Assembly (NCBI RefSeq): GCF_019320115.1
Contig: NC_089593.1
Span: 33,498,536 to 33,562,535 of the forward strand
Direction: 5' to 3'
Length of the DNA stretch: 64,000 bases
DNA from: Miscanthus floridulus
Lineage: Eukaryota > Streptophyta > Magnoliopsida > Poales > Poaceae
The position numbers were made by a program, and so were the translations under genes. Under the pieces are notes generated by a model. The model saw only the letters and a program-made list of their open reading frames with translations, was not told the origin of the DNA and made no database searches. Shown piece by piece: positions 5,000 through 61,782 of this stretch. Positions within the stretch are counted from its first letter, which is position 1. The number at the start of each line of letters is the position of its first letter.

Positions 5000-6584
5000 G
5001 AGCATGTCATCCCGAGGTGAATCATTGATGGACAATTCCTGCAGATTTTCAAACTGCATTCTAGACAAGTGATCGGCAACAGAATTTTCTACTCCCTTTT
5101 TATCTTTTATTTCTAAATCAAATTCTTGGAGTAACAAAATCTATCTTATAAGTCAAGGTTTAGCATCTTTCTTAGTGAGCAAGTATTTTAAAGCAGCATG
5201 ATTAGTATAAACAATCACCTTAGCTCGTACTAAGTAAGATCTAAACATATCAATAGCAAAAACAACATCTAGGAGTTCTTTTTCAGTTGTTACATATTTA
5301 AGTCGAGGTCCTATCAGAGTTTTGGTAGCATAAGCAATTTCATGATGCTTTTTATCTTTTGTTTGTCCCAAAACTACCCCCACAGCATAGTCACTAGCAT
5401 CACACATGATTTCAAAAGGTAGCGACCAATCAGGGGGCTGAATGATTTTTGCAGAGATGAGTGCTTTCTTAAGAATGTTAAAAGATTTGAAGCACACATC
5501 ATCAAATTCAAAGGGAATATCCTTAGCCAAAAGATTCATATGTGGTCTAGCAATATGTGAAAAATCTTTTATGAAGCAGCGGTAAAATCCTGCATGACCA
5601 AGAAAACTGCAGATCCCTCTGATATTTACGGGAGGAGGTAATTGTTCAATTACCTCAATTTTAGCTCTATCTACCTCAATCCCTCGTTCGAACACCAAGT
5701 GTCCAAGCACTATGCCTTCTCTAACCATGAAATGACATTTTTCCCAATTAAGGACCAAGTGCTTTTCTTCACATCTATGGAAAACCTTGTCTAAATTTTC
5801 AAGACAATCATCAAAAGTTTTTCCATAAACAGAAAAATCATCCATAAAAACTTCCATGATTTCTTCAATCATATCAGAAGATATAAACATCATGCATCTT
5901 TGAAAAGAAGCTAGAGCATTACATAATCCAAAAGACATTCTTCTGTCAGCATAAGTTTCATATGGACATGTAAAAGTGGTTTTGCTTTGGTCATCTAGAT
6001 GGATCGGTATCTAGTGATAACCTGAATACCCATCTAGAAAACAAAAGAAAGAGTGATTGGCCAGTCGCTCCAACCTTTTATCAATGAAGGGCAACATAAA
6101 ATGATCTTTCTTTGTTGCCTTGTTAAATTTTCGATAGTCAATACACATCTGCCATCCAGTGACGGTTCTTTGGGGGATTAATTTATTCTTTTCATTTTTA
6201 ACAACAGTCATGTCCTCCCTTTTTAGGCACAAGTTGAACAGGGCTCACCTATTCACTGTACGGAATGGGATAGATGATCTCGGTGTGCAGGAGTTTCAAG
6301 ACTTCTTTCTTAACAACCTTTCTCATCGCATTGTTAAGCCTACGTTGTGGCTCCCTAGAAGGTGTAGAATCAGGATCTGTAGGGATGTGATGGGTGCAAA
6401 GAGCAAGGCTAATTCCCTTAAGGTCTTGGAGCAAGTAGCCAAAAGTAGAGAGATGTTTTTCTAAGACAGTTATCAAGTGGAGGGATTCTTCCTGAGAGAG
6501 TTTATCACTTATGATCACAAGAGAATCCTGATCATTATTGAGAAAAAGCATATCTAAGGCTAGAAGGTAGGGGTTTAAGCTCAA
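5000..6584 (-). pseudogene. Reverse transcriptase and RNase H of the Athila element, frameshifted
   Basis: Reading leftwards: linker and RT fingers (MCIDYRKFN, near 6140; FLDGYSGYH near 6020), the palm with catalytic FMDDFSVYG (near 5840), the thumb/connection (FLGHAGFYRCFIKDF near 5600), RNase H (CDASDYAVG near 5395) and its end (VADHLSRMQFE near 5060). This order is the Ty3/gypsy polyprotein. Frames break near 5940-6010, 6232-6249 and 5140-5153. It would have copied element RNA into DNA within virus-like particles. Confidence 0.85.
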
Positions 6585-9390: not shown

Positions 9391-9395
9391 TCCGC
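9391..9395. repeat. Target site duplication TCCGC, left copy
   Basis: TCCGC precedes the chromovirus LTR start TGTAACACC; the same five bases follow the 3' LTR at 24763-24767. Confidence 0.9.
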
Positions 9396-12300
9396 TGTAA
9401 CACCTCGGGTGTTAGCCTTGCATAACTTGACTTGCATAACATGAGCATGATCATCACGCATTCATAAACAAGCATTTACAATTGAAACATTTGATTGAAA
9501 CATCTGCAACATTTGCTTGTTATCGCATGTTTCATTAACATATGCAACCTTTCTCATTATTTCATGTCTCCATGTGTATATGCATATGATCATGAGTGGA
9601 CACATGTACTTGGTTAATATGAGTCACCAAAATATTTTGGCAATGCTTAGGTTCACAATTGGAACATGGTTCATGAATGTCATTTTCCATGATCAAGTCC
9701 TTAAGTCATGTTTCATGTGATTACTTTAAATGGCCCTATGAGTGACTACTACATGAAATGATTGAATGACCTTGCAAATTGCTTAAAAATGTTTAGAGTA
9801 TCTTTATGAACAACTTTGATATTCATGGTTAGGGGTAAAAGGGTCATTAAGCCATGCTTTGATGTGTATCATCATGTAAATGTGACATGTTTGACCAAGT
9901 TTGAACTAGAGGTTAGAGACCTTGCATGGCGGAGATCACTAAAGCAAAGTTGTAGTATTCGACATAAGGAACAACTTTTATTTTTAGGTCATTGATTGAT
10001 TTAGCTTCTAACATGCTTGAATGGGTCCCACAAAAATCAGTAAAATCAACATCTCATGACTTAACAAAATTTTCTAAGTCTTTGATTGACTGACAGACTG
10101 ACAGGCCTATGTTGGGGGTGATTTTTCTCAGTCTCGGTTGAGAATTGGAGCATGATCCTTGAACAAAAGTTGTAGCTGGTACATTAGACTTCAACCTTGA
10201 TGTACTACATTTTCGCTGAAAGCCATTGGTAATGAAGTTTTCATCGTTGCAATACGCGTTGTCAGGCTCGGCTTGGCTTAACTGAATCAACTGACGACGC
10301 CGTTCAGTGGCCGACCGACACTAGGGCAGAGCCGCCGCGTGGACGTCGTGGCTGGCCGTGTGTCGCCAACGCCCTGCCCCACGCGGCAAAGCCAGGCCAG
10401 AGCACGGCTTTAACACCGCCAGCGCCCGCCCAACCCCTTCCGCGCTCCGTTTTTTATTTCCTCGGCCTTCTTCCTCGCCCGCTGCTGCAGCCATTCCCGC
10501 ACCGAGAGCCGCCGACGCCATTGCCGATGATAGCTCATCCTCGCTGCTCCTCCGCCACCGCAATAGCACCACCGTCACCCCAGCAACTCCAGACGTCCCC
10601 CATTGCCCGCTGTTCCAGCTTGGTAAGCCACAGCAACGCACACGCTCCCGCCGGAGTTCACCGCCATGTTCCGTCGTCGTGGCCACGCCGTTATAGTCTA
10701 CCATTCCATGCGATAGCGGATGCGCTAGGTTCGCCGTAGTACACTGGTGCTCATCCAAGCTTTAGGTCGAGCCACTGAGGTCATCACCGGCGTTTTGCCA
10801 TCGTTCCACCCCGCCGTGCCATCACAGCCGTCCGCCATGGTCAGCGGTGAAGTGCTTCGGTGCTCCTTCCATCCATACGAAGGCCACCACCGGGTGCGGG
10901 TGAATGAGTAGACCATGTAGGTGTAGTCGCTACCACCGGCAAGTTCACCAGCGATGAGCTAGGGCTGTGCCACGTCGAACGGCACTGTCACCCCTGTTTT
11001 CAGTCGATGACAAGCGGGCCCGGCTGACCGGTGGGCCCCAGGTTGCCAGTGACTGGTATTAGAAAGCTAGTTCATTTAAATCCAGATCTGGTGTTGTTTT
11101 GTACTTTTTGTATCTTCAGTTTGGTAGCTTCAAAAATTGTGAAATAAATTTGTTAGTGTTCCCTGGGAAGTGTAGTATTTAGGAAAAATATGTTCTTGAC
11201 ATTTACAGTAGAAATTTTTGAAGATTTAAATAGAGAATTGAAATACAGCTTTTGAATGCATTCAAATTTGTTTATTTTATATCTAGAGTTTCCTATGCTC
11301 CAAAAATTATGAAATTTTTGTGGTAAGCTAGTCTTAGCATATATGAGCTCTGGTAAAAATTTGAAGATGAGTGCATGTGTAGATTTGTAGTTAATAGATT
11401 TTTCTTTTATAATTGGGAGATCCTTGTGTAAATTTTTATAAATTATTTAGGAATCCAATACTCATGAAATTTGTTGGAGGGTATACTAGTAGTATATGGA
11501 TGCTAAGAAAAATAGGAAATCTATTGCTTGACACTTTTCAATAGGGTTTTCCATTTATGCTATTTCAAGCCTTGCTGCCTTATCATTTTTGTATAGGGTG
11601 TTCTACTAGATAAAATGACATGAAATTTTTATAGTAGTCCTTTGATAGCATTAGTAAGGCACTGTAAATTTTTAAGAATTTTTGAAACACATCTTATATA
11701 TGTTTATTATTTAACCTAAATATCTAAATAAAATAATAAAGGCATTTAAATAAATAATTTGGGCTTCACCATTATATTATCTTAAATGGATTTGGTATGC
11801 TTAAACTGTTGGTAGGTTTTATGTTGTCAAATTTGGAATGATTACATGAAGTAGAAGTATTGTTACTTTGTATTGCATGTTGAATAGTTTCTGGATAGAT
11901 TCTAGAGTTTGATGAATTGCATGTTGGAGATGATGTGTACTATAAAAATGGTTAATAACAAAGTTGTAGAGAATTTGATAAGCTTTCCAGAAAGTCCTAG
12001 GATCACTGTGTTTGGATTAGTAGAACTCCTAGTTATGAGTGAAACAAGTAGCTACTGTTTTGTGGCATAATCGATGCATTGTGGAAATAGTTAATTAAAT
12101 AATCGAGAAGAGATATGCACCTACTCAATAAACATGATGCACTTGTTAACATATATGCATTCATAATACTTATGCCATACTCATGCATCTAGGATCGGAG
12201 GAAGAGATCACGTTGCTAGAATTCGAAGAAGCAGAGGAAGGGAATCAGCAGGAGGATCCGCAAGCCGCAGCTCCCGAAGGCGTGGAGCAGAACCCTAAAG

Positions 12301-13850
12301 AGCTTCCGGAGTGTCCTGACCACCACCCTACTTCCTTTCTGCGAGGCAAGCCCTAGAGCATTATAAGTCTCCCTGTAATTTACAAATGTTTACTTAAGTA
12401 CTTATGATTGATGCATTAGGTTATAAGAGTTGAATGGAACCACTTGATGCATATAAATTCCTTGTCCAGATATTACACCTTTAACCGGTATAGGTCTAGG
12501 ATCGAATATATGCTTAGCCATGCTTAGACCGGTAGAAGTCGGGTGATGTCCTGTCACCTACGAGATGTAGGTGGATACCGGAAGCACGGTTGGCTATATC
12601 TGCTATCATGGAACAGAACCATGGGGTAAAAGTAAATCGAGACCGGACTGGGAAGTTCGATAGAGAAGCAACAAGACATGGAGGTCTTGGGTGTGGATCT
12701 ATCCCTGTCTGTGTCAATTAAGGACTGTACCATTGTTGGCTGCTTCTGATAAGATTGAACAGCATGCCTCTCACTTAGCTGGCCGGATAACTCGTTCCGA
12801 CCAGCGAAGCTGAGTAATTCAACTCAGGCTAGGAAACCAGTTCTATTGTGCGCTCCTTCCAGGGAACGATCAGACTGAGCCCAAGGGCAGGCTTGGCCTG
12901 AGCATCCTGGCATCTAGTGTTCTAGATTGTGCGGCACGGTATGGACCCGCGAAATGTGTACATGAGTTGTACCATAGGTGACCTAAGGCTATCGTGGCTG
13001 GTAGACCTGGGTTTGTGTTAGGAATAAATTCCCAGCTGGTTGAAATCGATTCAAATCGCCGTCTCTCCCGGATAGTGAGAAACTTGGCTAGTCCCAAGAT
13101 CGTAGTAACTGTGTTATGGAACATGATGGTTAGGATGAATATGGAATTACAATACCTGCTATGGTTACTATTGTATGCTTCTAAATGATATACCACATGT
13201 TTGGCACAGGATAGTTGCTAACCTAGAAATGGATAGTTATAAATAACCTGGTAAAGAATTTGTAACTGTACCATGATTCAATTGCTTTTACACAAAAATG
13301 TTGTCAAGTTATGCCCACTTATACAGCCTTGCATAATCCTTGGAGTTATTTTATTTCTGGTTCATGACGGGTAAGTCTAGCTGAGTACCTTCTCGTACTC
13401 AGGGTTTATTTTCCCATTGTTGTAGATGGCACTGTGTATCATGGTTATTGCAAGAGTTGCTTCTATCCCGCCGTGGATGAGGAGTAAGCCTTGGGCAGGC
13501 TTCTTTATTAATTCCTATCCTTGCTTTTGTGGACCGTGATCTTGCTTGGCACTGTATTAAACTATGTTGGAAACTTTATTTTTGAACTTATTTGCTTCCG
13601 CTTTATTTATCAAACTCGGTTTGTAATAACTTTTATTCGTACTCTGATGACGAAATGTATCTGTGAACTTTATGTAATATGTGGCATGTATGTTGAATCC
13701 TGTATGATCTTGGTTGTTGTAAATCGTTTATCGAGACCCGTCGTGGTACTCGACGGACTACTAGGTTTATATGGGTTCAAGTATGACAGTGCGACCGCTT
13801 GCGGGCTGCCATTGTACTTGTACTCTTATAAATTGGTCGGTTCTGCGACA
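9396..13850 (+). repeat. 5' LTR of the chromovirus (4455 bp)
   Basis: Begins TGTAACACCTCGGGTGTTA and ends TTCTGCGACA. Layout: AT-rich U3 (to ~10230), a GC-rich island (~10250-11060), a second AT-rich block (~11060-12180), and a 3' part with a conserved box (about 13050-13075) and a hairpin (13381-13402). Reading frames on both strands of the GC island (for example 10321-10758 minus) appear in both LTR copies but have no recognisable domain; I treat them as compositional. At over 4 kb this is unusually long for an LTR. Confidence 0.9.
13381..13402 (+). promoter_or_regulatory. Conserved LTR hairpin
   Basis: Arms CTGAGTAC and GTACTCAG pair perfectly around a 6-nt loop (CTTCTC), preceded by GTAAGTCTAG and followed by GGTTTATT. 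Equivalents are at 450-471, 24291-24312 and, on the minus strand, in the solo LTR near 32660-32690. Its place in the 3' third of the LTR would fit an RNA signal (R region or 3' end), but that is inference. Confidence 0.5.
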
Positions 13851-13864: not shown

Positions 13865-14605
13865 AAGATTTAACGTTATTTGTAACAAGTGTATTTAAAA
13901 CAAAAAGTTTTGTTTTCCAAAAACCCTCCTCTAGCAACTAATAGTTATATAATAGGTATTTGAAATCTAAAGTGTGCCAATGATCACTTTCCTTATGCCC
14001 AAATTAAGGACTATTAGGTGGCTATTTAAGTACTAACATGGGGGTTTCTACTTCGTCGTCCATACGACATGCTATTGTATGGATGCCATTCACTTGAGTG
14101 GTAATGTATGGATCAAATGCCTCTACGTCCAAGGTAAGATGATGAGTGTATGACCGCAAGATGTGAGTGTGCGGTCGGAGAGAGTTAGCTTTGGTACGGC
14201 TATGTAGGCATGCTTGCATGTGTATATGGTGCATATTTAATTATGGGTTTAAATTATTGTCGGGTAGATTGATACGGAAGTATATGTATGGGTTTACATA
14301 TATGAAAGTATTTACCACTACATTCTGCATATTTCATTATGGGTTAGGGCTGAGATGAAATTTTATGCAGGTACACAAACAACGAAACGTGTAGCTCGAC
14401 TAGTTACGCTATTTGTGAGAGAACGTATGTATGCCACCGTGTCTACCGTTAGAAACAAATTTTTTCCTAAGTCTATGAGGACGTATGGAATGAGCATGCA
14501 TCATGATAATTACCATTCACATAGTTACATTGTTCCTCCCCTTATAAAATTCTTACTCGGTTATGTAACTCTTATCCATTATGGCATTATCTCACCAAAG
14601 GGTAC
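13865..14605 (+). other. Chromovirus leader, non-coding
   Basis: About 740 bp between the primer site and the accessory ORF. Short frames only; no domain or repeat recognised. It would form the untranslated leader and might hold packaging signals. Confidence 0.5.
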
Positions 14606-15523
14606 ATGTTAATGGTGCAATTGGCACGCACCAAGCAGACTGCTCGCAAGTCCACCAGAGGCAGAGCTCCTAGCCGTCAGCTTGCTCCATGTACCCATCA
14701 ACGTCACACGTTCCTTGGAGAGTTTGGGATGCCTACACTCTTGTGGAGAGTGCTCAGTTATGTAGGCTATCCTGATGGAATGGAACCCCACTACTTCTGG
14801 GCGAATGAGCAGTTGGGAGAAGGTCTCTTAGTTACTGTGGAGGCCGTTGTTCATCCCCGAGGTGACGATTCTGAGTGGACAGGTTGGTGTTATGAGTCAA
14901 CTGGTAGGACTGCTGAAGAAGCAGTTGGTAGAGCAGCCTTTGGGATCCTGAGGGATATCATGGATCATTTTCCTCAGGAGCTGGCAGCCGCTTTGGTTGG
15001 AGTCTTTCCAAGGGGTAACCCCTCCACTGACTCATGGCAGCAGGCAAGAGGAATATCTTTGGAGATTGGTGCAGTAGAAGGGTAGAACAGCGATAACCCT
15101 TCCATGAGCGCCATGTTCGCAGTGATGAGAGTGTTAGATGGAGTAGAAGGTAGCCTCAGGTGTGTGTCTGGTGCTCTTGGTCATGCCTGTGAGGACCGAC
15201 GTCAGCTTTAGAGGGAGCACGACGCCGAGATTGAGAGGCTCATTGAAGAGATGACTTGGTTAACTCACCAAAGGAATGCGGCCTGGACCAGGGAAGATGT
15301 TCTGAGAGCTCGATAGTTCGAGCTGGGGCAGTAGCTGGCCAATGCGGAAGAATACAACGATCACCTACATGAAGAGGTTCATCTACTAAACAACCAGCTC
15401 CACCCTTATGTCCCACCTAGAGCTGCAAAGATGGATCAAGAAGTAGAGCTTGAAGAAGAAGTGGAGCCTGAGGAAGGAGATGATCCTATGTCTAACCTTG
15501 ATAGTGATCATGATGAGGATTAG
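14606..15523 (+). pseudogene. Accessory ORF with histone H3 N-terminal tail mimic, upstream of gag
   Basis: A single frame of 306 codons from the ATG at 14606 to TAG at 15521-15523, interrupted by four TAG codons (first at 15083), each explicable as CAG to TAG. Residues 7-27 (nt 14624-14686) begin ARTKQTARKST, identical to histone H3 residues 1-11, and the next ten positions keep G13, A15, P16, Q19, L20 and A21; in all 17 of 21 match (changes G12R, K14R, R17S, K18R). The codon before ARTK is TTG, probably a mutated original ATG. The sequence then leaves H3 entirely: a middle region with TGRTAEEAVGRAAFGIL (near residue 110), patterned like the last helix of a double-stranded RNA-binding domain; a charged helical region; and an acidic tail (EVELEEEVEPEEGDDP). 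Function unknown; it may be methylated or read as H3 is. This is not a histone gene, as no histone fold follows. Confidence 0.85.
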
Positions 15524-15879: not shown

Positions 15880-16956
15880 ATGACGTGCACCCGTGCTGGA
15901 GCTAGTGGCAGCCAGGATGGCAACCATGACGACTTGCCACCCCCACCACCGCCGTCTGCTCAGGAGTTCTTTACCCAGTTCCTGGGGAGCCAAAGGACAA
16001 TGGAGGAAGCTTTGCGCCTTATTGCGCAAAACACTGCTCGTGGCCACCCACATCAACCAGGGGCCGAGCCAAATTAGCATAATACATTCAAGGAGTTTCT
16101 GGATACGAAGCCTCCAATCTTCAAGGTCGTTGAGGAACCACTACAGGCCGATGAGTGGCTGAATACCATTGAGCAGAAATTCCGTCTGCTGAGGGTCACG
16201 GAACATCTGAAAGCAGAGTATGCTTCTCATCAATTGCAAGGACCAGCAGGGATCTGGTGGACACATTTCCTATCGTCTTTGCCTGCTAATGCGCGAGTTA
16301 CCTGGGAATAGTTCAAGATGGCTTTTAGGGGACACCATATTCCCCTGGGCCTGATGCGCATGAAAGCAGCCGAATTTATGAGGCTCACTCAAGGAACAAA
16401 GTCACTCACAGAATATATGCATGCATTCAACAACTTGTCCAGATATGCTCCAAGTTTCGTGGATACTGAGGAGAAAAAGATAGAGAGTTTCAAGCGAGGT
16501 TTGGGTACTAAACTAATGAAGACCATGGCCAATTCTAGGTGTGCCATGTACAATGAGTTTATTAGTGATGCCTTGACCCAAGAAAATCACAACAACATGC
16601 ATGCAGTTGCCAAGGGTCGCAAGAGGGCATATGAGGCCGGTGCATCTAGATCTTTCCAGTCGAAAGCGCCTATCACAACTAGGCCACAATTCCATCCACC
16701 TGCACCCAAGTTTAGGCCTCCACCACCTAAAGCTCAGAATAATAGGCCACAGAAACCATTCCATAAGCCATTTACTATTGCCTTACCAAAAGGAAATGGC
16801 AATCAGGACAGCTCCATCGGATTCAGAAGTAATCAACCATGTTTCAACTGCAACCAACTAGGTCATTGATCCAAGGAGTGCCCCCACCCCAAGAAGAATA
16901 GCAACCAAAATCAGAACTATCAGAGATAGGTGAATGCCAGGGCACGTTAGGGACAA
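15880..16956 (+). pseudogene. gag of the chromovirus
   Basis: One frame from the ATG at 15880, continuous with pol. It shows the retrotransposon gag capsid region (about residues 80-210; EEPLQADEWLNTIEQKF, WWTHFLSSLP and RLTQGTKSLTEYMHAF are visible) and then a proline-rich linker (PPAPKFRPPPPKAQ). A CCHC zinc knuckle follows, CFNCNQLGH, with a TGA where tryptophan usually sits, then SKEC. Nonsense codons occur at 16075, 16312, 16867, 16927 and 16948, all explicable by one transition. Gag would form the particle and bind element RNA. Confidence 0.88.
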
Positions 16957-19900
16957 GTGCATTATACCGCTGTGGAGGAAGTGCCCGCCGGAGAAGTTGT
17001 CATGGCTGGTATGTTTCTCGTCAACAAGCATCATGCTGTTGTTTTATTTTATTCGGGAGCTTCTTATTCATTTATGAGTCAAGCATTTGCATCTAGACAT
17101 GATCAAGAAATAATTGAAGTAAGCAAAGGGGGTTTTAACATAAGTTCAGTAGGGGGAACTGTTATTACCAAAAAGATAGTAAAAAATGTGCTCATCTCCA
17201 TACAAGGGAGGGAGTACACAACAGATTTGATAATATTGCCCAGGTTATCGATAAGTGTAATCTTAGGCTTGAATTGGATGAAGGATCATGGTGTTCTTAT
17301 TGACACTAGCACCCGTACTATTATGTTGAGAGAACCCACGGGAGGGAATGCTTTTCTAGTGCCACTCTCCTGTGATTTCGAACCCCAACATTTAGCCTGT
17401 GCTATCCAAACCACCACACTTTGTGAGATTCCAGTGGTTTGTGAGTTTCTGGATGTATTTCCAGAAGAATTACCAGGTCTACCCCTGGATAGGGATGTGG
17501 AATTTAAGATCGAGTTAGTGCCAGGTACGGCACCCATATCAAGAAGGCCCTATAGAATGCCACCCAATGAGTTAGCGGAACTTAAGGTTCAACTGCAAGA
17601 TCTGTTGGACAAGGGTCTTATCCAACCTAGCTCATCTCCATGGGGATGTCCAGCCTTGTTTGTGAAAAAGAAGGATAAGTCACTGAGAATGTATGTAGAT
17701 TACAGACCACTCAATGCGGTGACCATCAAGAACAAATATCCGTTGCCCCGCATCGACATCTTGTTCGATCAGCTAGTGAAGGCAAAGGTATTCTCCAAAA
17801 TTGACTTGAGATCAGGCTACCATCAGATAAAGATCAGACCGGAGGATATACCTAAAACTGCTTTCTCTACCAGGTACGGCTTATATGAGTATTTGGTTAT
17901 GTCTTTCGGACTAACAAATGCTCCAGCCTACTTCATGTACCTGATGAACTCGGTATTCATGCCCGAACTTGACAAGTTCATGGTCGTGTTTATCGATGAC
18001 ATATTGATTTATTCAGAAAATGAGTCAGATCATGAAGAGCATCTGAGGATTGTCCTATCCAGATTGAGGGAGCATAAGCTATATGCCAAGTTTAGCAAAT
18101 GTGAATTTTGGATGAGCAAAGTACCTTTCTTAGGTCACATTTTATCAAGAGATGGAATCATAGTAGACCCATCAAAAGTACAAGAGGTCATGGATTGGAA
18201 AGCCCCAACTTCGGTTCATGAAGTTCAAAGTTTTCTAGGGTTAGTAGGATACTATAATCGGTTTATTCCAGATTTCTCAAAGATAGCTAAGCCTATGACC
18301 AGATTACTTCAGAAAGATGAGAAGTACAAATGGACACCAGAATGTGAAACAGCTTTTCACACCCTCAGAACTTTGTTGACTACAGCACCTGTGCTAGCAC
18401 AACCAGACATTGAAATGCCTTTTGATGTATTTTGTGATGCATCGGGAATAGGTTTGGGATGTGTGCTTATGCAAGAAGGAAGAGTAATTGCATATGCTTC
18501 TCGACAATTGAGAAAACATGAAGTCAACTACCCTACACATGATTTGGAACTTGCAGCCATTGTCCATGCATTAAAGATATGGAGACATTACTTGTTGGGC
18601 AATGTATGTCATATCTATACTGACCACAAAAGTCTCAAGTATATCTTTAGCCAGCCAGAGCTGAACATGAGACAATGAAAATGGTTAGAATTGATTAAGG
18701 ACTACAATTTAGAAGTGCATTACCATCCGGGTAAAGCTAATGTAGTAGCCGATGCACTCAGTCGGAAGTCCCATTGCAACACTGTGGAAGCATTGTTGGA
18801 AGATGGATTCAACTTGTTACATCCTGCTATACTACACAATATCACGATCAGTTGTTCACTTGAGAGCAAAATCATAGAGCTACAGCAGACAGATGTAGGA
18901 ATAAGTCACATCAAGAGAAAAATGCAAGAGCAAGAAACCAAACATTTTAGATTGGATGAAAGAGGTGTATTATGGTTTGAGGACTGACTCGTGGTACCAA
19001 AAGACCATGAGCTAAGGAATCAAATTTTAGCTGAAGCTCACTCGTCCAAATTGTCTATCCATCCGGGTAGTAGTAAAATGTATCAAGATTTAAAAACCTA
19101 TTTTTGGTGGACTAAGATGAAGAAAGAGATCACAGCCTATGTTGCTAGGTGTGACAACTGCAGTAGAGTAAAAGCTATCCATATGAAAACTGCGGGACTA
19201 CTCCAGCCATTGCCTATTCTAGGATGGAAATGGGAGGAAATCAGCATGGATTTTATCATAGGCCTTCCAATGACGCCACAAGGTCACGATTCAATCTGGG
19301 TTATTGTTGATCGTCTCACCAAGTCAGCACACTTTATACTCGTGAACACATGGTATATAGTTGGAAAATACGCTGAGATATATGTTTCCCAGATCATGAG
19401 ACTGCATGGAGTACCCCGTACTATAATCTCCTGATCGAGGACCACAGTTCATAGCTCATTTCTAGGAGCACTTACACCAGGCTTTGGGAACCAAGCTAAT
19501 CAGAAGCTCGACATATCATCCGCAAACTTCAGGACAGACAGAGCGAGTGAACCAAATCCTAGAAGATTTACTTAGAGCTTGTGTTATATCTTCAAAAGGT
19601 TCATGGGAGAAATGGTTACCTTTAGCAGAATTCTCCTATAACAACAGTTATCAAGCGAGTATCAAAATGGCTCCATTTGAAGCCTTGTATGGCAAAAAAT
19701 GTAGAACTCCCTTGAATTGGATTGAGCCAGGTGAAAGGAGATACTTTGGTATTGATTTTGTTAATGAAGCCAAAGAGCAAGTACGTATCATCCAACAACA
19801 TATGAAGGCAGCTCAATCAAGACAAAAGAGTTATGCCGACAAAAGAAGAAGACCACTAACTTTTGAAGTGGGTGACTATGTATACTTGAGAGTATCACCC

Positions 19901-20293
19901 ATGAAAGGTGTGAAAAGATTTGGGATGAAAAAGAAGCTTTCACCAAGATATGTAGGGCCATACAAAATTTTGGAACGAAAAGGGAATGTTGCATATAAGT
20001 TACAACTTCCACCAGAGATGAGTGCAATCTTTGATGTGTTCCATGTTTCTCAGTTAAAGAAATGGCTTCGAGTACCTGAAGAAGCTATTGCACCCACCAA
20101 CGTGCAGCTTCAATCGAATTTGACCTATGAAGAAAAGCCAATTCGAGTATTAGAGGAGATGGAGAGAGTAACAAGGAGTAAGATTATTAAGTTCTATAAG
20201 GTGGTGTGGAACAATCATAGTGAACAAGATGCTACGTGGGAAAGAGAAGATTATCTGCGAGAAGTTTATCCCGCCTTTTTCCAAGAATGGTAG
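16957..20293 (+). pseudogene. pol of the chromovirus: protease, RT, RNase H, integrase, chromodomain
   Basis: Same frame as gag. Protease: FYSGAS at 17047, where the catalytic Asp of D-S-G is Tyr (TAT at 17050-17052). [12 protein letters not shown] (17685), catalytic FIDDILIYS with FIDD at 17989-18000. RNase [10 protein letters not shown] (18433), TDHKSLKYI (18620). Integrase: HHCC zinc region (HPGSSKMYQ to CDNCS, 19060-19165), first core Asp in SMDFIIGLP (19249), second Asp in the DRGPQF region (19435) and Glu in TSGQTERVNQ (19530). Chromodomain: about 20140-20280 with KVVWNNHSEQDATWE. Damage: TGA at 18676 and 18985, one inserted base at about 19431 giving a frameshift, and TAG near 19465. 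The ~1.47-kb-codon polyprotein is otherwise full length. The chromodomain would guide integration to marked chromatin. Confidence 0.93.
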
Positions 20294-20337: not shown

Positions 20338-23300
20338 TATAACACCTCGGGTGTTAGCCTTGCATAACTTGACTTGCATAACATGAGCATGATCATCACG
20401 CATTCATAAACAAGCATTTACAATTGAAACATTTGATTGAAACATCTGCAACATTTGCTTGTTATCGCATGTTTCATTAACATATGCAACCTTTCCTCGT
20501 TATTTCATGTCTCCATGTGTATATGCATATGATCATTGAGTGGAAACATGTACTTGGTTAATATGAGTCACCAAAATATTTTGGCAATGCTTAGGTTCAC
20601 AATTGGAACATGGTTCATGAATGTCATTTTCCATGATCAAGTCCTTAAGTCATGTTTCATGTGATTACTTTAAATGGCCCTATGAGTGACTACTACATGA
20701 AATGATTGAATGACCTTGCAAATTGCTTGAACATGTTTAGAGTATCTTTATGAACAACTTTGATATTCATGGTTAGGGGTAAAAAGGTCATTAAGCCATG
20801 CTTTGATGTGTATCATCATGTAAATGTGACATGTTTGACCAAGTTTGAACTAGAGGTTAGAGACCTTGCATGGAGGAGATCACTAAAGCAAAGTTGTAGT
20901 ATTCGACATAAGGAACAACTTTTATTTTTAGGTCATTGACTGATTTAGCTTCTAACATGCTTGAATGGGTCCCACAAAAATCAGTAAAATCAACATCTCA
21001 TGACTTAACAAAATTTTCTAAGTCTTTGATTGACTGACAGACTGACAGGCCTATGTTGGGGGTGATTTTTCTCAGTCTTGGTTGAGAATTGGAGCATGAT
21101 CCTTGAACGAAAGTTGTAGCTGGTACATTAGACTTCAACCTTGATGTACTATGTTTTCACTGAAAGCCATTGGTAATGAAGTTTTCATCATTGGAATACG
21201 CGCTGTCAAGCTCGGCTTGGCTTAACTGAATCAACTAACGACGCCGTTCAGTGGCCGACCGATGCCAGGGCAGAGCCGCCGCATGGACGTCGTGGTTGGT
21301 CGCGCATCGCCAATGCCCTGCCCCGCGTGGCAAAGCCAGGCCAGAGCGCGGCTTTAACACTGCCAGCGCCCGCCCGACCCCTTCCGCGCTCTGTTTTTCA
21401 TTTCCTCGGCCTTCTTCCTCGCCCGCTGCTGTAGCCATTCCCGCACCGAGAGCCGCCGGTGCCATTGCCGACGATAGCTCGTCCTCGCTGCTCCTCCGCC
21501 ACCGCAACAGCACCACCGTCACCCCAGCAACTCCAGACGTCCCCCATTGCCCGCTGTTCCAGCTTGGTAAGCCACAGCAACGCACACGCTCCCACCGGAG
21601 TTTCGCCGCCGTGTTCCGTCGTCATGGCCATGCCGTTATAGTCTACCATTCCATGCGATAGCGGATGCGCTAGGTTCGCCGTAGTACACTGGTGCTCGTC
21701 CAAGCTTTAGGTCGAGCCACTGAGGTCATCACCGGTGTTTTGCCGTCGTTCCACCCCACCGTGCCATCACAGCCGTCCGCCATGGTCAGGCGGTGAAGTG
21801 CTTCGGTGCTCCTTCCATCCATACGAAGGCCACCACCGGGTGCAGGGTGAATGAGTAGACCATGTAGGTGTAGTCGCTACCGCCGGCAAGTTCACCGGTG
21901 ATGAGCTAGGGCTGTGCCGCGTCGAACGGCACCGTCTCCCCTGTTTTCAGTCGATGACAAGCGGGCCCGGCTGACCGGTGGGCCCCGGTTGCCAGTGACT
22001 GGTATTAGAAAGCTAGTTCATTTAAATCCAGATCTGGTGTTGTTTTGTAATTTTTGTATCTTCAGTTTGGTAGCTTAAAAAATTGTGAAATAAATTTTTT
22101 AGTGTTCCTTAGGAAGTGTAGTATTTAGGAAAAATATGTTCTTGACATATATAGTAGAAATTTTTGAAGATTTAAATAGAAAATTGAAATATGCTTTTGA
22201 ATGCATTCAAATTTGTTTATTTTATATCTAGAGTTCCTATGCTCCAAAAAAATGAAATTTTTGTGGTAAGCTAGTCTTAGCATATATGAGTGCATGTGTA
22301 GATTTGTAGTTATAGATTTTTCTTTTATAATTGGGAGATCCTTGTGTAAATTTTTATAAATTATTTAGGAATCCAATACTAATGAAATTTGTTGGAGGGT
22401 ATACTAGTAGTATATGTATGCTAAGAAAAATAGGAAATCTATTGCTTGACACTTTTCAATAGGGTTTTCCATTTATGCTATTTCAAGCCTTGCTGCCTTA
22501 TCATTTTTGTATAGGGTGTTCTACTGGGTAAAATGACATGAAATTTTTATAGTAGTCCTTTGATAGAATTAGTAAGGCATTGTAAATTTTTGAGAATTTT
22601 TGAAACACATCTGATATATGTTTATTATTTAACCTAAATATCTAAATAAAATAATAAAGGCATTTAAATAAATAGTTTGGGCTTCACCATTATATTATCT
22701 TAAATGGATTTGGTATGCTTAAACTATTGGTAGGTTTTATGTTGTCAAATTTGGAATGATTACATGAAGTAGAAGTATTGTTACTTTGTATTGCATGTTG
22801 AATAGTTTCCGGACAGATTCTAGAGTTTGATGAATTGCATGTTGGAGATGATGTGTACTGTAAAAATGGTTAATAACAAAGTTGTAGAGAATTTGATAAG
22901 CTTTCCAGAAAGTCCAGGATCACTGTGTTTGGATTAGTAGAACTCCAGTTATGAGTGAAACAAGTAGCTACTGTTTTGTGGCATAATCGATGCATTGTGG
23001 AAATAGTTAATTAAATAATCGAGAAGAGATATGCACCTACTCAATAAACATGATGCACTTGTTAACATATATGCATTCATAATACTTATGCCATACTCAT
23101 GCATCTAGGATTGGAGGAAGAAATCACGTTGCTGGAATTCGAAGAAGCAGAGGAAGGGAATCAGCAGGAGGATCCACAAGCCGCAGCTCCCGAAGGTGTG
23201 GAGCAGAACCCTGAAAGAGCTTCAGGAGTGTCCTGACCACCGCCCTACTTCCTTTCTGCGAGGCAAGCCCCATGAGCATTATAAGTCTCCCCGTAATTTA

Positions 23301-24762
23301 CAAATGTTTACTTAAGTACTTATGATTGATGCATTAGGTTATAAGAGTTGAATGGAACCACTTGATGCATATAAATTCCTTGTCCAGATATTACACCTTT
23401 AACCGGTATAGGTCCAGGATCGAATATATGCTTAGCCATGCTTAGACCAGTAGAAGTCGGGTGATGTCTTGTCACCTGCGAGATGTAGGTGGATACCGGA
23501 GCATGGTTGGCTATATCTACTATCGTGGAACAGAACCATGTGGTAAAAGTAAATCAAGACCGGACGGGAAGTCGATAGAGAAGCAACAAGACATGGAGGT
23601 CTTGGGTGTGGATCTATCCCCGTCTATGTTGATTATGGACCGTACCATTGTTGGCGCTTCTGACAAGATTGAACACATGCCTCTCACTTAGCTGGCCAGA
23701 TAACTCGTTCCGACCGTGAAGCCGAGTAATTCAACTTAGGCCGGGAACCATTCTGTTGTGTGCTCCTTCTGGGGAACGATCAAACTGAGCCCAAGGGCAG
23801 GCTTGGCCTGAGCATCCTGGCATCTAGTGTTCTAGATTGTGCGGCACGGTACGGACCCGTGAAATGTGTACCTGAGTTGTACCAAAGGTGACCTAAGGCT
23901 ATCGTGGCTGGTAGACCTGGGTTTGTGTTAGGAATAAATTCCCAGCTAGTTGAAATCGATTCAAATCGCCGTCTCTCCCGGATAGTGAGAAACTTGGCTA
24001 GTCCCAACATCGTAGTAACTATGTTATGGAACATGATGGTTTGGATGAATATGGAATTACAATACCTGCTATGGTTACTATTGTATGCTTCTAAATGATA
24101 TACCACATGTTTGGCACAGGATAGTTGCTAACCTAGAAATGGATAGTTATAAATAACCTGGTAAAGAATTTGTAACTGTACCATGATTCAATTGCTTTTA
24201 CGCAAAAATGTTGTCAAGTTATGCCCACTTATACAGCCTTGCATAATCCTTGGAGTTATTTTATTTCTGGTTCATGACAGGTAAGTCTAGCTAAGTACCT
24301 TCTCGTACTCAGGGTTTATTTTCCCATTGTTGCAGATGGCACTGTGTATCATGGTTAGTGCAAGAGTTGCTTCTATCCCGCCGTGGATGAGGAGTAAGCC
24401 TTGGGCAGGCTTCTTTATTAATTCGTATCCTTGCTTTTGTGGACTATGATCTTACTTGGCACTATATTAAACTATGTTGGAAACTTTATTTTTGAACTTA
24501 TTTGCTTCCGCTTTATTTATCAAACTCGGTTTGTAATAACTTTTATTCATACTCTGATGACAAAATGTATCTGTGAACTTTATGTAATATGTGGCATGTA
24601 TGTTGAATCCTGTACGATCTTGGTTGTTGTAAATCGTTTATCGAGACCCGTCGTGGTACTCGATGGACTACCGGGTTTATATGGGTTCAAGTATGACAGT
24701 GCGACCTGCTTGCGGGCTACCATTGTACTTGTACTCTTATAAATTGGTCAGGTTCTACGACA
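20338..24762 (+). repeat. 3' LTR of the chromovirus (4425 bp)
   Basis: Aligns along its whole length with 9396-13850. It begins TATAACACC (TG mutated to TA) and ends TTCTACGACA. Differences are scattered transitions, small indels and one 24-bp deletion after 22290. Confidence 0.9.
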
Positions 24763-24767
24763 TCCGC
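24763..24767. repeat. Target site duplication TCCGC, right copy
   Basis: Matches 9391-9395; the Athila LTR resumes at AAGCGCATGG. Confidence 0.9.
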
Positions 24768-32196: not shown

Positions 32197-35100
32197 TATA
32201 ATAGAACCATCCAATTTATAAGAGAACAAGTACAATAGCAATCACCGAAGTGATCATACCATTATACTTGAACCCATATAAACCTGGTAGTCCGATGAAA
32301 TCACAGGGGATCTCAAACAAATCAACGTACAAACCAAGATTGTACATGATTCAACACAACCAGTCAAATGTTACAATAGGTTCACAAATAGTTCTCATAC
32401 ATAAGAGTTTCAACAAAGTTATTACAACTCAAATTTAGAAGTAGCGGAAGAAACATAGTTTTGAAACAACATCATGATAGTTCAAATACATAGCCAGTTT
32501 AGGATCATCTCCAACAAAAACACCTAGGTGAGATGATATAGAATGACCATGCCCTTGGTCTTACTCTCCATCAATAGCAGGAGTTATGTAGTGCTTGCAA
32601 TAACCATGGTACATCACGTCATCTGTAACAAATGGGATTAAACCCTAAGTACAAGAATGTACTCAGCTAGACTTACCCGTCATAAACCAAAATAATAAGA
32701 CACCAAGGAGTATGCATGTCTTTAAGAGGTGGAGTTAGCTTGACAACATTTTGCATAAAAGCTTAAGTAATATAACTTGGAGATTTAGTACCTCTAGCAT
32801 CAGTTTGAATACCTATTCAATTAAGCATCTCTAGATTAGCACCTATACTAGAGCAATCACTTGATTAAGCTAACAAGCATTAGTAACCATATCCGGTATA
32901 AGAGTAATTTGAGCATCATCATAACCATCAAGTTTCAATTAGTGCTTCTACGTTGCCGCTGCTCAGTCAAGTTCTCAGTATCCGGGAGAGATGGCGATTC
33001 GAATCGATTCCTACCCAGCTAGGGAATTTATTCCAAACACAAACCGAGGCACACCCTGTGAAGGTAGCCTCAGGTCACCTTTGGTACAATTTAGGACTAA
33101 CTCGCGGGTTCGATCAGCGCCGCACCCTCAGAGATTCTACCAATCTGCCAGGAAGATTGGGACCCGGTCCCACCCTTGGACTCACGCCATTGGCTCTCCA
33201 CACATCCTTACTGCCTCTAGCGTGCACACTTTCACTTATCGGGGCCTAGCCTGAATTGAGCTACTCGGCTTCGTGGTCGTATCATCGGATCCGGCCAACT
33301 AAGTGCTAGGCATGCATTCAACATGACATGAGGACGTACAGCGGATCGGTCCTTAGACGACACAGACGGGGATAAATAGGCACCCAAGACCTCCATGCCT
33401 TGTTGCTTCTTTATCATGATCCCGCCTGATCTCCTTTATTCATTGACACATGGTTATATTCCATGCTAGCACATATAGCCAACCGTGATTAGTTATCATC
33501 CTATAACATGCTGGTGATAGGTAATCACCCGAGTTCTACCAACTAAGCATGGCTAAGCATATATTCAATCCTGAACTTACATAGGATTCAAGATATGTAT
33601 ATCTGGACAAGGAAGATATATGCAACAAGTGATTCCAATCAACTCCTTGTACTTAATGCATCAACATAAAAGGACTCAAGTTGAATTTGAAAACATAGGA
33701 GGCTTAAAATGCTCCGGGGCTTGCCTTTCACAAAGGTTGAGGGATGGTGATCTGGGCACTCTGGCAACTATTCACCGTCGAGCTCGCCTTCTCCTAGGAC
33801 CTCCTGTTGCTGCACTTCCTGATGCTCTTCCTGGGGATCGGCTTCGTACTCCAACACGGTGATTTCTTCCATCGCACCTATTGCATGCATATGCAAAAAG
33901 TCAGAATCATGAATGCATAAGAAGAGTCATGGATGATATGTCATGATAATGTGCATGGTTAAATGATGAATATCATATTAGGTCATTAGGATGATAACAA
34001 GGTGAAATTCTTATTTACTTAGTAGGTGCATATCTCTTCTGTAGAAATTTCAAGGATCCACACTAAGTCTATTTCTGGACCACAACATAACAGCTACAAG
34101 TTTAGATCATAACTGGAGTTCTACTCAACCAAATGCTATGATCCTAGACTTTATGGAAAGCTTATAAAATTGCATACAACTTTCATTTAATCACCAAAAG
34201 CTGATTCAACTACTATCCTAGCCAAAATAGGTAACTTCACAGGTCTGTCCAGAAATTCCAGAGAGTAAGCATTTCGGAAGCCAACTTCTAACAGCTATAA
34301 CTCTCAAACTACTTGGCCTATTGCCCTGAAATTTTGACACAAGCTAGATAAATAAATTCCCTACAACTTTGTTATTAACCATTTTTACATCAAACTCCAT
34401 TTTACCTATGCAAAATACCTAGCAACAGAATCTGTCCAAACAACTTCTATAATTGAATTTTAGAGCCATAATATATTACTGCATACTAGAAATAAAAAAT
34501 TGGGCATGACCAAAGGTACCAACAGTTCATAGGCAGCATACACACTCTAGAAAATATAATGGTCAAGCCCAAATAAATTATTTAAATGCCTTTATTAATT
34601 TATTTGGACACTAAGGTGAAATAAAGAAAATATATCAAAATGCACAATAAATTCTAAGAAAATTACAGTAGCTTACAAATGACTCCAAAAGTCTACTGCA
34701 CAAATTTCATGCCATTTGGATAAGTATAGCCATCTCAACATAAATAACAAGTTATAAGGGCTGATTTTAGTGAAAATAGTTATCCCAATTAAATAGTGTC
34801 AAACAACAGATTCTATATTTTTCTTGGCTTCCCTAAAACCCATTAACACTGTACAAAAAATTGCATGGCAATATGTTACTTATTTTTATCCTTATGAATT
34901 TCCTCAGAAAACACCATTTATTAAAAGATAAATAGAAAGACACTACTCCAATCAAGTTTACTGCAAGTTAAACATTTTTCCGAACAAGAGCAAGTCAACA
35001 CAAGATCTACAAAATTGGAATCACAATTTTATCACTTTCCTAGCTCTAGTTATACATTTTACAAGATTGCAAATAATTTAAAAGCACTTATATAGCTCTA

Positions 35101-37056
35101 TTTAATTCTCCCAGAAAAACATCACAAACAGTAAGTTTCATATTTTTATCAAATACTGCACTTCATGATGAAGCTAACAAAATTTGGTTCACTCCATTTG
35201 GACACTCCTAGCTCTAGATATTAATTTTTGAAGCTGGAAGTCAAATCTGTGAAAAATAAGAAAAAATCAAAACAAACATAGTGACTGACAGATGGGGCCC
35301 ACTGGTCAGTAGAACCCACGTGTCAGTGAACCAGAACAAAGGCGGCATTCGACCAGTGATAGCTCGCCGACAGTGAGGTCTCCGGTGGTAGCGTCACCAC
35401 GGTTGCACTCCCCACACTCCCCCGCACCCAATGGTGCCCTTTGTTGGACCGGCGGTGCACTGGAGCACCCTCGCCTACGGTAATGGCGGACGACGGAGTA
35501 GGCGCGGTGGTACACCGGCGTTCTCCGGCCATGGTGTGCTCAGACAAGGTGTGTCATGGCTTCATGGTAACCTAATGAAGCTATCTATGGTGGTAGGGAT
35601 TTTGGTGAGCGGTGGCGAGCTCCGACCGCGCGCATGTCGCGGCGGCGGTGCACAGAGCACGGTGGTGCTCTCAGCGTTCTGGCTAGACGGTGGTGAGAGG
35701 TAGGTCTTCGTCATGCCAACTGCTTGGTCAAGGCTTACTCAACCTAATGCTCATGAAAGAGATGGGAGGCGATAGGCCAGCTCGGTAACGGTGAGCTCGA
35801 ACGCCTCAGTGGCCATGGCGACCGCGGCGAGAGCGGCGGTGTGTTCCCGCACGACCAAGCAGTAGCATCAAGCCAAGCTACTACCTAAGCGTAAGGACCA
35901 CAATGCAACTACAAATCAGAGAAAAGGAGGACATGCGATGTGTTGGATTGGTGCGGCCACGGTAAGCCGAGCGCATGGTGGCGCTTCGACGAGATCGTGG
36001 CGACAGCGATGCAAAATACACCCTTACCAAGGCTCGGTAAGAGGGAATAGCAGGTCAGGGTGGAAGAGGTGATGATGGTGGAGCTACTGGTGAACTGAAT
36101 TGGACAGTGGTGTAGCAATGATGGCACTACGCGGTGGCAGAGCTGGCGGCAACAATGGCGAGCGCGGCGCTCCACTGGCGGGTGCGAGAGCGAGCGAGGG
36201 ACGAAAAATGAGCAAGAGAGACGCAGACGGGCGCGTTGTGGTGATAATGAGGCTCTCGCCAGCTAGACTAGTGGGGCTCATGCTGGTGTATGGCCACCAG
36301 ATGGCAGGCGCAGCCTGATGGCGGTCAGCCACCACCGGCCTACCCAAACATGGCATGAGCCTGTTTCATACGACTGAAATGGTCCCCTTCCTCACTCTAT
36401 ATCTCTTAAACCAACATGATTTAGCAAAAACTGTAAGAATCGAAGTTGTAGAGCTATATGAGTACTCCAACTTTGCTTAAATGAGTTTGGTCTAGATCAG
36501 CCAAGTTTATGAGCTACAACATGACAAACATCGGTACATTGAAACTGTAAATCAATTCTGGACTTTGAAAATTTTTCAAGTGCTAGAATAGTATTTTGTT
36601 GCTAATTGTGAGCTGTTATTGAGCATGTTAGGATCTGAATTAGACCATGACCCAAAAATAAAAGTTGTTATCCTAGTTGAGTACTACAACTTTGCTTAAG
36701 GGTGCACTACCATGCAAACACTCTATGCTATAGTTCAACTTAGGTCAAACATACAACTTGAAAATGGTAAGTTACACTATAACCATGACTTAGAGGCCAA
36801 ATTGGTCCAAGTCATGAATACCAAAGTTGTTTCATATGACATTCTAAACATGTTTAGGGTACTTCTAAGGTCCCAAAAGCATTTTATACATTGGTCACAT
36901 GTAAACCCTAGCATATGTAAAGCATTTAGTGACAACACATGTAATATAAGCAATCACAGAGATACAATTTGTGATGCTCATGCTTATGAATGATCAATGA
37001 TGCTTGTGCTCATGTAATGACAATGCCAAATGCATGCTTAACACCAGGGTGTTACA
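32197..37056 (-). mobile_element. Solo LTR of a chromovirus-related family, 4.86 kb
   Basis: On the minus strand it begins TGTAACACCCTGGTGTTA (37056) and ends near TTATAAATTGGATGGTTC (32200), the same terminal architecture as the LTRs of the 9396-24762 element. The reverse-oriented CGCCATCTCTCCCGGATACT box (~32975) and the hairpin (~32660-32690) are shared. It is flanked by a perfect GCCTC duplication with no internal region or second LTR. The GC island here (35280-36360) differs in sequence from that of the full element, so it is a distinct subfamily. Frames in the island have no recognisable domain. Confidence 0.88.
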
Positions 37057-59449: not shown

Positions 59450-60350
59450 ACCGCTGAGCTCCGACCGCGTCGACCACGGACCACGTCGACCACGTTCCGA
59501 GCGGCTCCGCCGAGCTCCGACCACGGACCATGTCGATCACGTCCCGAGCGGCTCTGCCGAGCTCCGACCACGTCGACCACAGACTACGTCGCGATAATGA
59601 TCGCTGCGAAGAACGGCACTACGACAATCGCGACCACCGTCATGATGATAGATCCAATCTAAGAAGCCTCGCATCGAAGCCGGCGGATCAATCAATTTGC
59701 AGCTCTGTCGTTGTTACAGAGACGCGAGCATGGCATCTTCACGAGAAAACAAGGACGTAGCTCAGACATGCAAGGGGATGGACTTGCATGTACATGCATC
59801 ACTGCCTTCACGATCGCGCGCATGAGCTATTACTTGATGCCGATCAACATTGACGATGCAGCGGCTGTCAAACCAATTCAAGATCAATTCTTCTACTCGT
59901 CAAGTCAAGCCGTCTGACTCCGATTCTGATAGGCACGCGAGCTGACTGGTCAGTTGCGTCGAGCCGCTGAGCGAGCCACGGCGAGCCGCGTTGAGCCGCT
60001 GAGCAAGCTACATCGAGCCACATCAAGCTGTTCAAGCCATCCAGTGGGCCACGCCGAGCCAACCAGCGAACCGCATGAGCTGCTGAGCGAGCCACGTCGA
60101 GCCATCAACCGAGCCGCTGAGCAGCTCCACCGAGCTCCGACCACGTCGACCATGTCCCGAGCGGCTCCGTCGAGCTCCAACCACCAGACCACGTCGACCA
60201 CGTCCTGAGCGGCTTCGCCGATCTCCGACCACCAGACCACGTCGACCACGTCCCGAGCAGCTCCACCGAGCTCCGACCACCAGACCACGTCGCAATGATG
60301 ATCGCCACGAAGAACGGCGCTATGACAACTGCGACCAACATCACAACAGG
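59450..60350 (+). repeat. Minisatellite arrays and a large internal duplication
   Basis: Units of about 50 bp built on CCGAGCTCCGACCACGTCG occur at 59453-59595 and 60115-60295; both arrays are followed by a similar GAAGAACGGC block (59606 and 60311), so a ~200-bp segment was duplicated. Between them (59944-60120) is a shorter 20- to 23-bp repeat of GAGCGAGCCACGTCGAGCC type. Confidence 0.75.
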
Positions 60351-60966: not shown

Positions 60967-61238
60967 GCTCGGGGACTTCGTCGCTCGCTTCTCAACCTAC
61001 GCTCAGGGACTGCCTCGATCACTCTCCGACCACGGCTCGAGGACTTCGTCGCTTGCTCCTCGACCTACGCTCGGGGACCGCCTCGATCACTCTCCGACCA
61101 CGGCTCAGGGATTTTGTTGCTCGCTCCTCGACCTATGCTCGAGGACTGCCTCAATCACTCTCTGACCACAACTCGGGGACTCCGTCGCTCGCTCCTCGAC
61201 CTGCGCTCGGGGACTGCCTCGATCACTCTCCGACCACG
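60967..61238 (+). repeat. Tandem repeat, four 68-bp units
   Basis: Units begin at 60967, 61035, 61103 and 61171, with a partial fifth at 61239. Each is two 34-bp half-units starting GCTCGGGGACT. Because 68 is not a multiple of 3, the repeat is not coding. Confidence 0.9.
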
Positions 61239-61782
61239 GCCTAGGGACTTTGCGTCTCAACTACATACAACTAGCGACTCGCATACAGTTGGGATATTCT
61301 TTCTCGTTTAGACCTTGCTACAAGGCTCATACCTCGTCTTCCAGCAAGCTCGGGGACTACATCAGTACGATGCACCTGCCGGTGCATCTCGTATCGCCTG
61401 TACGACGATTGGATTCTCAACTTAACTGGGAATTCTTTTTAGACCTTGGCACCACGTGCCTACGTCACCTACTGCCAGGCTCGGGGACTAAGTGGGCACA
61501 CTTCACCTTGCGGTGAATGTGCTTGTTTTTCGACCACTACGCCTCTGATGATCAAAGATGCTACGCTTCAAGATGCACTTACATTTCTTCTTAGAAATAC
61601 AAGTGGGCACACTTCCTGGGACGGAAATCTTTTTCTTTCTTCTTAAGAGCACCATACATTCTTCGGACAACCTACTTCTCCGGCGACAACGGTGGTCAGA
61701 GATGTCAAGAACTCAAGCCTCACTATTCGGAGAAGGTTAAAATGGCGTGTCGCAGCATAATACATGGTGCTCGGGGACTAGC

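Follow-up and report, generated by a model that had tools for sequence, protein, structure and literature searches.

The analysed window, a 64-kb stretch of the Miscanthus floridulus genome (NC_089593.1, 33,498,536-33,562,535), contains a Ty3/Gypsy retrotransposon with long terminal repeats (LTRs), gag and pol. An additional open reading frame (ORF), ORF0, is present upstream of gag and is broken in this copy (14606-15523). By its LTRs, domain order and upstream ORF the element is a candidate Tekay/Del chromovirus with ORF0. ORF0 starts with a stretch resembling the N-terminal tail of histone H3, followed by a domain with the predicted fold of a double-stranded RNA-binding domain (dsRBD). Its parts, in window coordinates, are the following.

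14606..15085, forward strand: open part of ORF0, 159 amino acids
14624..14704, forward strand: H3-tail segment, residues 1-21 of which finish at 14686
14717..15004, forward strand: predicted dsRBD-fold domain, ORF residues 38-133 (AlphaFold)
15086..15523, forward strand: decayed remainder of ORF0, in the same frame, with further stops

At the start of ORF0, positions 14624-14686 of the forward strand translate to ARTKQTARKSTRGRAPSRQLA. An earlier note on this DNA had reported an H3-tail string here, and the string is real: the first 11 residues are those of H3, and over 21 residues 17 agree, the differences being G12R, K14R, R17S and K18R. In a six-frame scan of the window the next best position scored 8/21, and 15 mononucleotide shuffles of the window gave maxima of 7 to 10 of 21. 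Compared with PDB sequences by phmmer, the window ORF reached a best E value of 2.2e-4. Up to E 10 there were 139 matches, the best 60 of which were all H3 entries, all on the tail segment. Relatives match H3 even better (P0003, 1.5e-5; P0128, 4.1e-6 over H3 residues 2-29), and similarity out to residue ~28-29 was found only in P0128. For the histone-fold core, no Pfam histone match was obtained in the window ORF or the 8 relatives scanned.

Relatives were collected in a first search of 5.8 billion proteins (141 at E <= 1, 120 listed), a profile search, in which 7985 candidates were scored and 3698 reached E <= 10 (120 listed), and, thirdly, a search that started from the domain of P0094, a diverged member (102 at E <= 0.001). 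The comparison set comprises 272 relatives and the window ORF. The start of the domain was recognised by pattern in 87 of these; 31 have a tail, called when at least 5 of 11 H3 residues were matched, 48 have none and 8 start too late to judge. P0118, missed by the pattern and outside the 31, is a further tail-bearing protein. Tails occur in the window-like subfamily and in those of P0036, P0065/P0067/P0079, P0097/P0150/P0169, P0125, P0128 and P0154. The earlier note had named beforehand, as grounds for giving up its proposal, absence of the string from other copies and a recent fragment insertion in this copy only. Neither was found: relatives in diverged subfamilies carry the tail, so that the string is not restricted to one copy and a recent insertion into a single copy is rejected. 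The proposal that the tail opens a protein of the element is also supported. Met precedes the tail in 30 of the 31 cases, and 25 of these 30 predicted proteins begin with that Met. In the window copy Leu, not Met, precedes ARTK, so that ORF0 would begin at an upstream in-frame ATG.

Residues were counted over the 31 tails, window included. K9, P16 and L20 are found in all 31, A1, G13 and A21 in 30, T6 and A7 in 29, R2 and S10 in 28, T3, R8, T11, A15 and Q19 in 27, G12 in 23 and R17 in 22. K14 is retained in two tails (R in 27), K18 in none (H in 21, R in 7) and K23 in none (R in 27); the K27 column likewise stands at 0/31. By these counts K9, mostly in the setting ARKS, is the only lysine that never varies, and hardly any acetylation site is left. 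The replacement of both K14 and K18 by arginine, noted earlier, is correct for the window copy; in the family K14 is mostly Arg, but K18 is mostly His.

Import signals of the H3 tail use K14 and K23. As both positions are mostly Arg in the family, with charge kept and acetylation blocked, the tail might be a mere nuclear-import or general basic segment from H3 retained for its charge, and Poaceae 5'aORF proteins are predicted to be nuclear (PMC11728184). Charge alone, however, leaves the invariance of K9, P16 and L20 and the change of K18 to His in 21 tails unexplained, and a sister lineage that has no tail apparently manages without such a signal; we regard this explanation as quite unlikely.

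Of the 31 tail rows, 19 were used to compare tail and domain similarity, in 171 pairs. The tail was more alike than the domain in 89/89 pairs at domain identity <60%, in 37/39 at 60-70% and in 4/4 at 70-80%. With one row per subfamily (7 rows), the lead of the tail was smaller: mean identity was 70% for the tail, 58% for the domain and 30% for the linker, and the tail was ahead in 17 of 21 subfamily pairs, whose domains are 47-71% identical. This is an indication, at the protein level only, that the tail is under constraint.

Among the 48 tail-less proteins, 44 form the sister lineage, the sequences of P0127, P0132 and P0133 start within the tail, and P0107 opens with unrelated sequence. Sister-lineage proteins reaching far enough read MALSHQ.YMLMVQM-A(A/T)P.G.EN-FL..FGTPTLLWRVL, and window-type relatives read MALSHQGYMLMVQM-ARTKQTARKSTGGRAPSRQLAPRTRQRHT-FLGEFGMPTLLWRVL at the corresponding place. 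Both lineages have the domain, in which the window ORF and P0185 are 39% identical, and the acidic end, which in P0269 reaches 87% over 23 residues; moreover, P0274 is a sister-lineage ORF0 joined to a gag that is 75% identical to the window gag over 48 residues. A domain tree of 22/31 tail rows and 22/44 tail-less rows placed 21 tail rows together on one side of a 100/100 branch, with P0094 as sole exception. As this tree is unrooted and gives no direction, the direction of the change is inferred; the simplest reading of the sequences is that the tail was gained directly after the start codon in one lineage. The tail-less sister lineage and the additional H3 residues of P0128, up to residue 29, support the proposed capture from an H3 gene. 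Convergent mimicry by a short motif would be in line with known viral and cellular mimics, whose motifs are short, for example ARSK of NS1 (PMC10612106). Yet ~20 residues align here from residue 1, some of them without evident mimic role, and P0128 additionally retains K14, T22 and A24 and matches residues 2-29, for which reason descent from an H3 gene is favoured and convergence seems hardly credible.

For the domain, AlphaFold predicts a helix, three strands, a helix and a further helix, an order that contains the alpha-beta-beta-beta-alpha succession, with a block-mean predicted local distance difference test score of 83-92 in residues 41-130 (whole model 66.6; predicted template modelling score 0.57). 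Matches of the predicted fold include DRB7.2, DCL4 dsRBD2 and TRBP dsRBD3. KKxAK is the RNA-binding motif of dsRBDs. It is missing from the first 140 residues in 273/273 proteins (272 relatives, many of them fragments, and the window ORF), and helix 2 starts with two adjacent K/R in 1 of 227 extracted; Pfam dsrm gave no match in the window ORF or the 8 relatives scanned. Longer open copies of ORF0 are P0123, P0124 and P0125. By analogy with P0125 the decayed remainder (15086-15523) may contain a coiled-coil region, and it includes an acidic C-terminus at 15434-15520. In the metagenome proteins P0263, P0265, P0269 and P0232 the domain is fused to the acidic end without coiled coil, and likewise in P0006, a metagenome protein of the tail clade; these forms look as if produced by internal deletion or splicing.

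Our findings suggest that by the tail of ORF0 the element imitates a silencing signal of its host, since the H3 tail is where cells place marks that shut down transposons. In plants, SUVH4-6 write and CMT3 reads dimethylated lysine 9 of H3 (H3K9me2), and SHH1, a possible recruiter of Pol IV, recognises unmethylated K4 in combination with methylated K9 (PMC7617993). We propose, with a probability of roughly 0.5, that ORF0 is a nuclear accessory protein of this chromovirus lineage, composed of a captured N-terminal H3 tail (1 to ~28), a dsRBD fold of the kind that binds proteins, then a coiled coil and finally an acidic end, and that its tail works as a histone mimic. The most likely outcome would be interference with, or diversion of, the linked H3K9 methylation and small-RNA silencing. 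The H3K9 writers and readers by which transposons are silenced (SUVH4/5/6, CMT3 and SHH1) would be expected to modify the invariant K9 or to dock on it. With the acetylation sites gone, the tail could be methylated and then occupy H3K9 readers, and the dsRBD fold, like Dicer/DRB docking modules, could dock on DCL/DRB proteins; for these reasons an anti-silencing or diverting role is favoured. The tail, its retention across subfamilies and its absence from the sister lineage are observed and the architecture is predicted; translation, nuclear action, modification, binding and the direction of the effect are what we infer. Recruitment or titration of H3 readers and writers, as already envisaged in the earlier note, is a plausible putative role of the tail judged from sequence. 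Only tentatively do we go further and see in the acetylation-proof H3K9 mimic, the Dicer/DRB docking fold and the coiled coil an anti-silencing decoy, contained in one element protein, against both arms of silencing, H3K9 methylation and small RNAs.

Several points weigh against the proposal of a silencing-directed histone mimic. Foldseek by itself found nothing at E <= 0.001. K4 is present in 26/31 tails (R in 4, W in 1) and Q5 in 18/31 (L in 11), which excludes a reader of the H3K4 type as general target. P0107, placed in the tail clade by its domain, lacks the tail. Where domains are >80% alike, the tail is ahead in just 19/39 pairs, and the four exceptional subfamily pairs all involve P0154, whose tail is degraded. 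The criterion of 5/11 residues favours conserved tails, and the sequences are related, so that counts do not equal independent events. In the window subfamily, upstream in-frame ATGs could mask the N-terminal alanine, which many H3 readers require in free form, and the window copy of ORF0 itself is broken. The broken copy, the degraded P0154 tail and the selection criterion would also suit a relic, an H3 fragment caught by chance and hitchhiking with no role. This we consider very improbable, since subfamilies with domains 47-71% identical keep the tail at a mean of 70% but the adjoining linker at 30%.

A further alternative concerns the element itself, the remaining parts of which are given here.

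9391-9395: target duplication TCCGC, preceding the 5' LTR
9396..13850, forward strand: 5' LTR, 4455 bp, TGTAACACC...CGACA
16318..16869, forward strand: part of gag, PF03732 and the start of a zinc knuckle; gag starts upstream of the listed ORF
16957..20293, forward strand: pol, four listed ORFs with Pfam matches
20338..24762, forward strand: 3' LTR, 4425 bp
24763-24767: target duplication TCCGC, adjoining the end of the 3' LTR

The two LTRs are 95.8% identical, exceed 3 kb, as in Tekay/Del, and are flanked by TCCGC at both outer ends. Pol contains protease, reverse transcriptase, RNase H and the zinc-binding and C-terminal parts of integrase; the Pfam matches follow the Ty3/Gypsy order gag-protease-reverse transcriptase-RNase H-integrase, and the integrase core gave no Pfam match in the pol ORFs. 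The end of pol has a weak chromodomain match (PF00385, E 0.0017, 18.7 bits, under the cut-off of 25.1). The methylated tail might be a tether and not a decoy, a ligand of the element's putative type II integrase chromodomain or of a host chromodomain, by which the integration complex would be assembled or brought to heterochromatin. The invariant K9 fits, and the partner of type II chromodomains is not known (PMC6317226, PMC12786077). Type II chromodomains, however, are described in the same sources as lacking aromatic residues of the methyl-lysine cage, and the sister lineage with its homologous gag manages without a tail; such a tether appears unlikely.

Directly ahead of ORF0, the leader contains an 85-amino-acid ORF (14355-14612, forward strand). 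P0118, which has a tail, and P0179 and P0221, which have none, contain a leader reading of similar kind (MHHD..., IVPP.I...), and the leader DNA therefore seems conserved. Elsewhere in the window, reverse-strand segments at 32203-34835 and 36622-36898 are ~69-74% identical to parts of the element's LTR and are, by sequence, probably remains of a diverged relative. A 261-amino-acid ORF at 5153-5938 (reverse strand) resembles, as recognised by eye, the reverse transcriptase/RNase H of another Ty3/Gypsy element, and G+C-rich tandem arrays lie at 59471-60343 and 60967-61240 (units of ~47-48 and 68 bp).

A conserved H3 tail that has kept K9 and lost its acetylation sites gives the ORF0 of this lineage a concrete, testable role. 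A transposable element would here have captured a histone tail instead of evolving a short motif, and the tail is a candidate ligand of type II chromodomains. A search confined to an open-access library yielded no published case of a transposable element with an H3 tail. Retrosat2, RIRE3 and RIRE8 (PMC3485330) likewise have an additional ORF that lies between gag and a long 5' LTR, and so do maize and sorghum Tekay elements, whose 5'aORFs combine a DRBM-like fold with a long C-terminal helix (PMC11728184). The published ORF0/5'aORF diverges faster than pol and has no established function according to these two papers. Compared with the window ORF0 by description only, it comes with no mention of an H3 tail, the word 'histone' occurring 0 times in the main texts of both. 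Metabolic enzymes, as proposed for the ORF0 of Retrosat2, RIRE3 and RIRE8 (PMC3485330), differ from what the present models suggest. ORF0 shares its predicted fold with the docking modules DRB7.2, DCL4 dsRBD2 and TRBP dsRBD3, but is unlike them in having neither a Pfam dsrm match nor KKxAK. As in influenza NS1, a non-histone protein of a genetic parasite would here imitate the H3 N-terminus; the NS1 motif, as described, has four residues, is C-terminal and lacks a free amine (PMC10612106), whereas that of ORF0 has ~21-28 residues, is N-terminal and apparently gene-captured. In G9a/GLP and ATF7IP an H3K9-like motif is methylated and bound by chromodomain proteins (PMC9768651), and by analogy both would be expected for ORF0, although these motifs lie in host chromatin proteins and not in a captured N-terminus. 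Orchid Ty3/Gypsy elements with an N6-methyladenosine demethylase domain (PMC9289625, PMC12786077) likewise contain an extra domain of host type, by which host control may be affected; the orchid element adds an enzyme domain, the Miscanthus element a histone tail.
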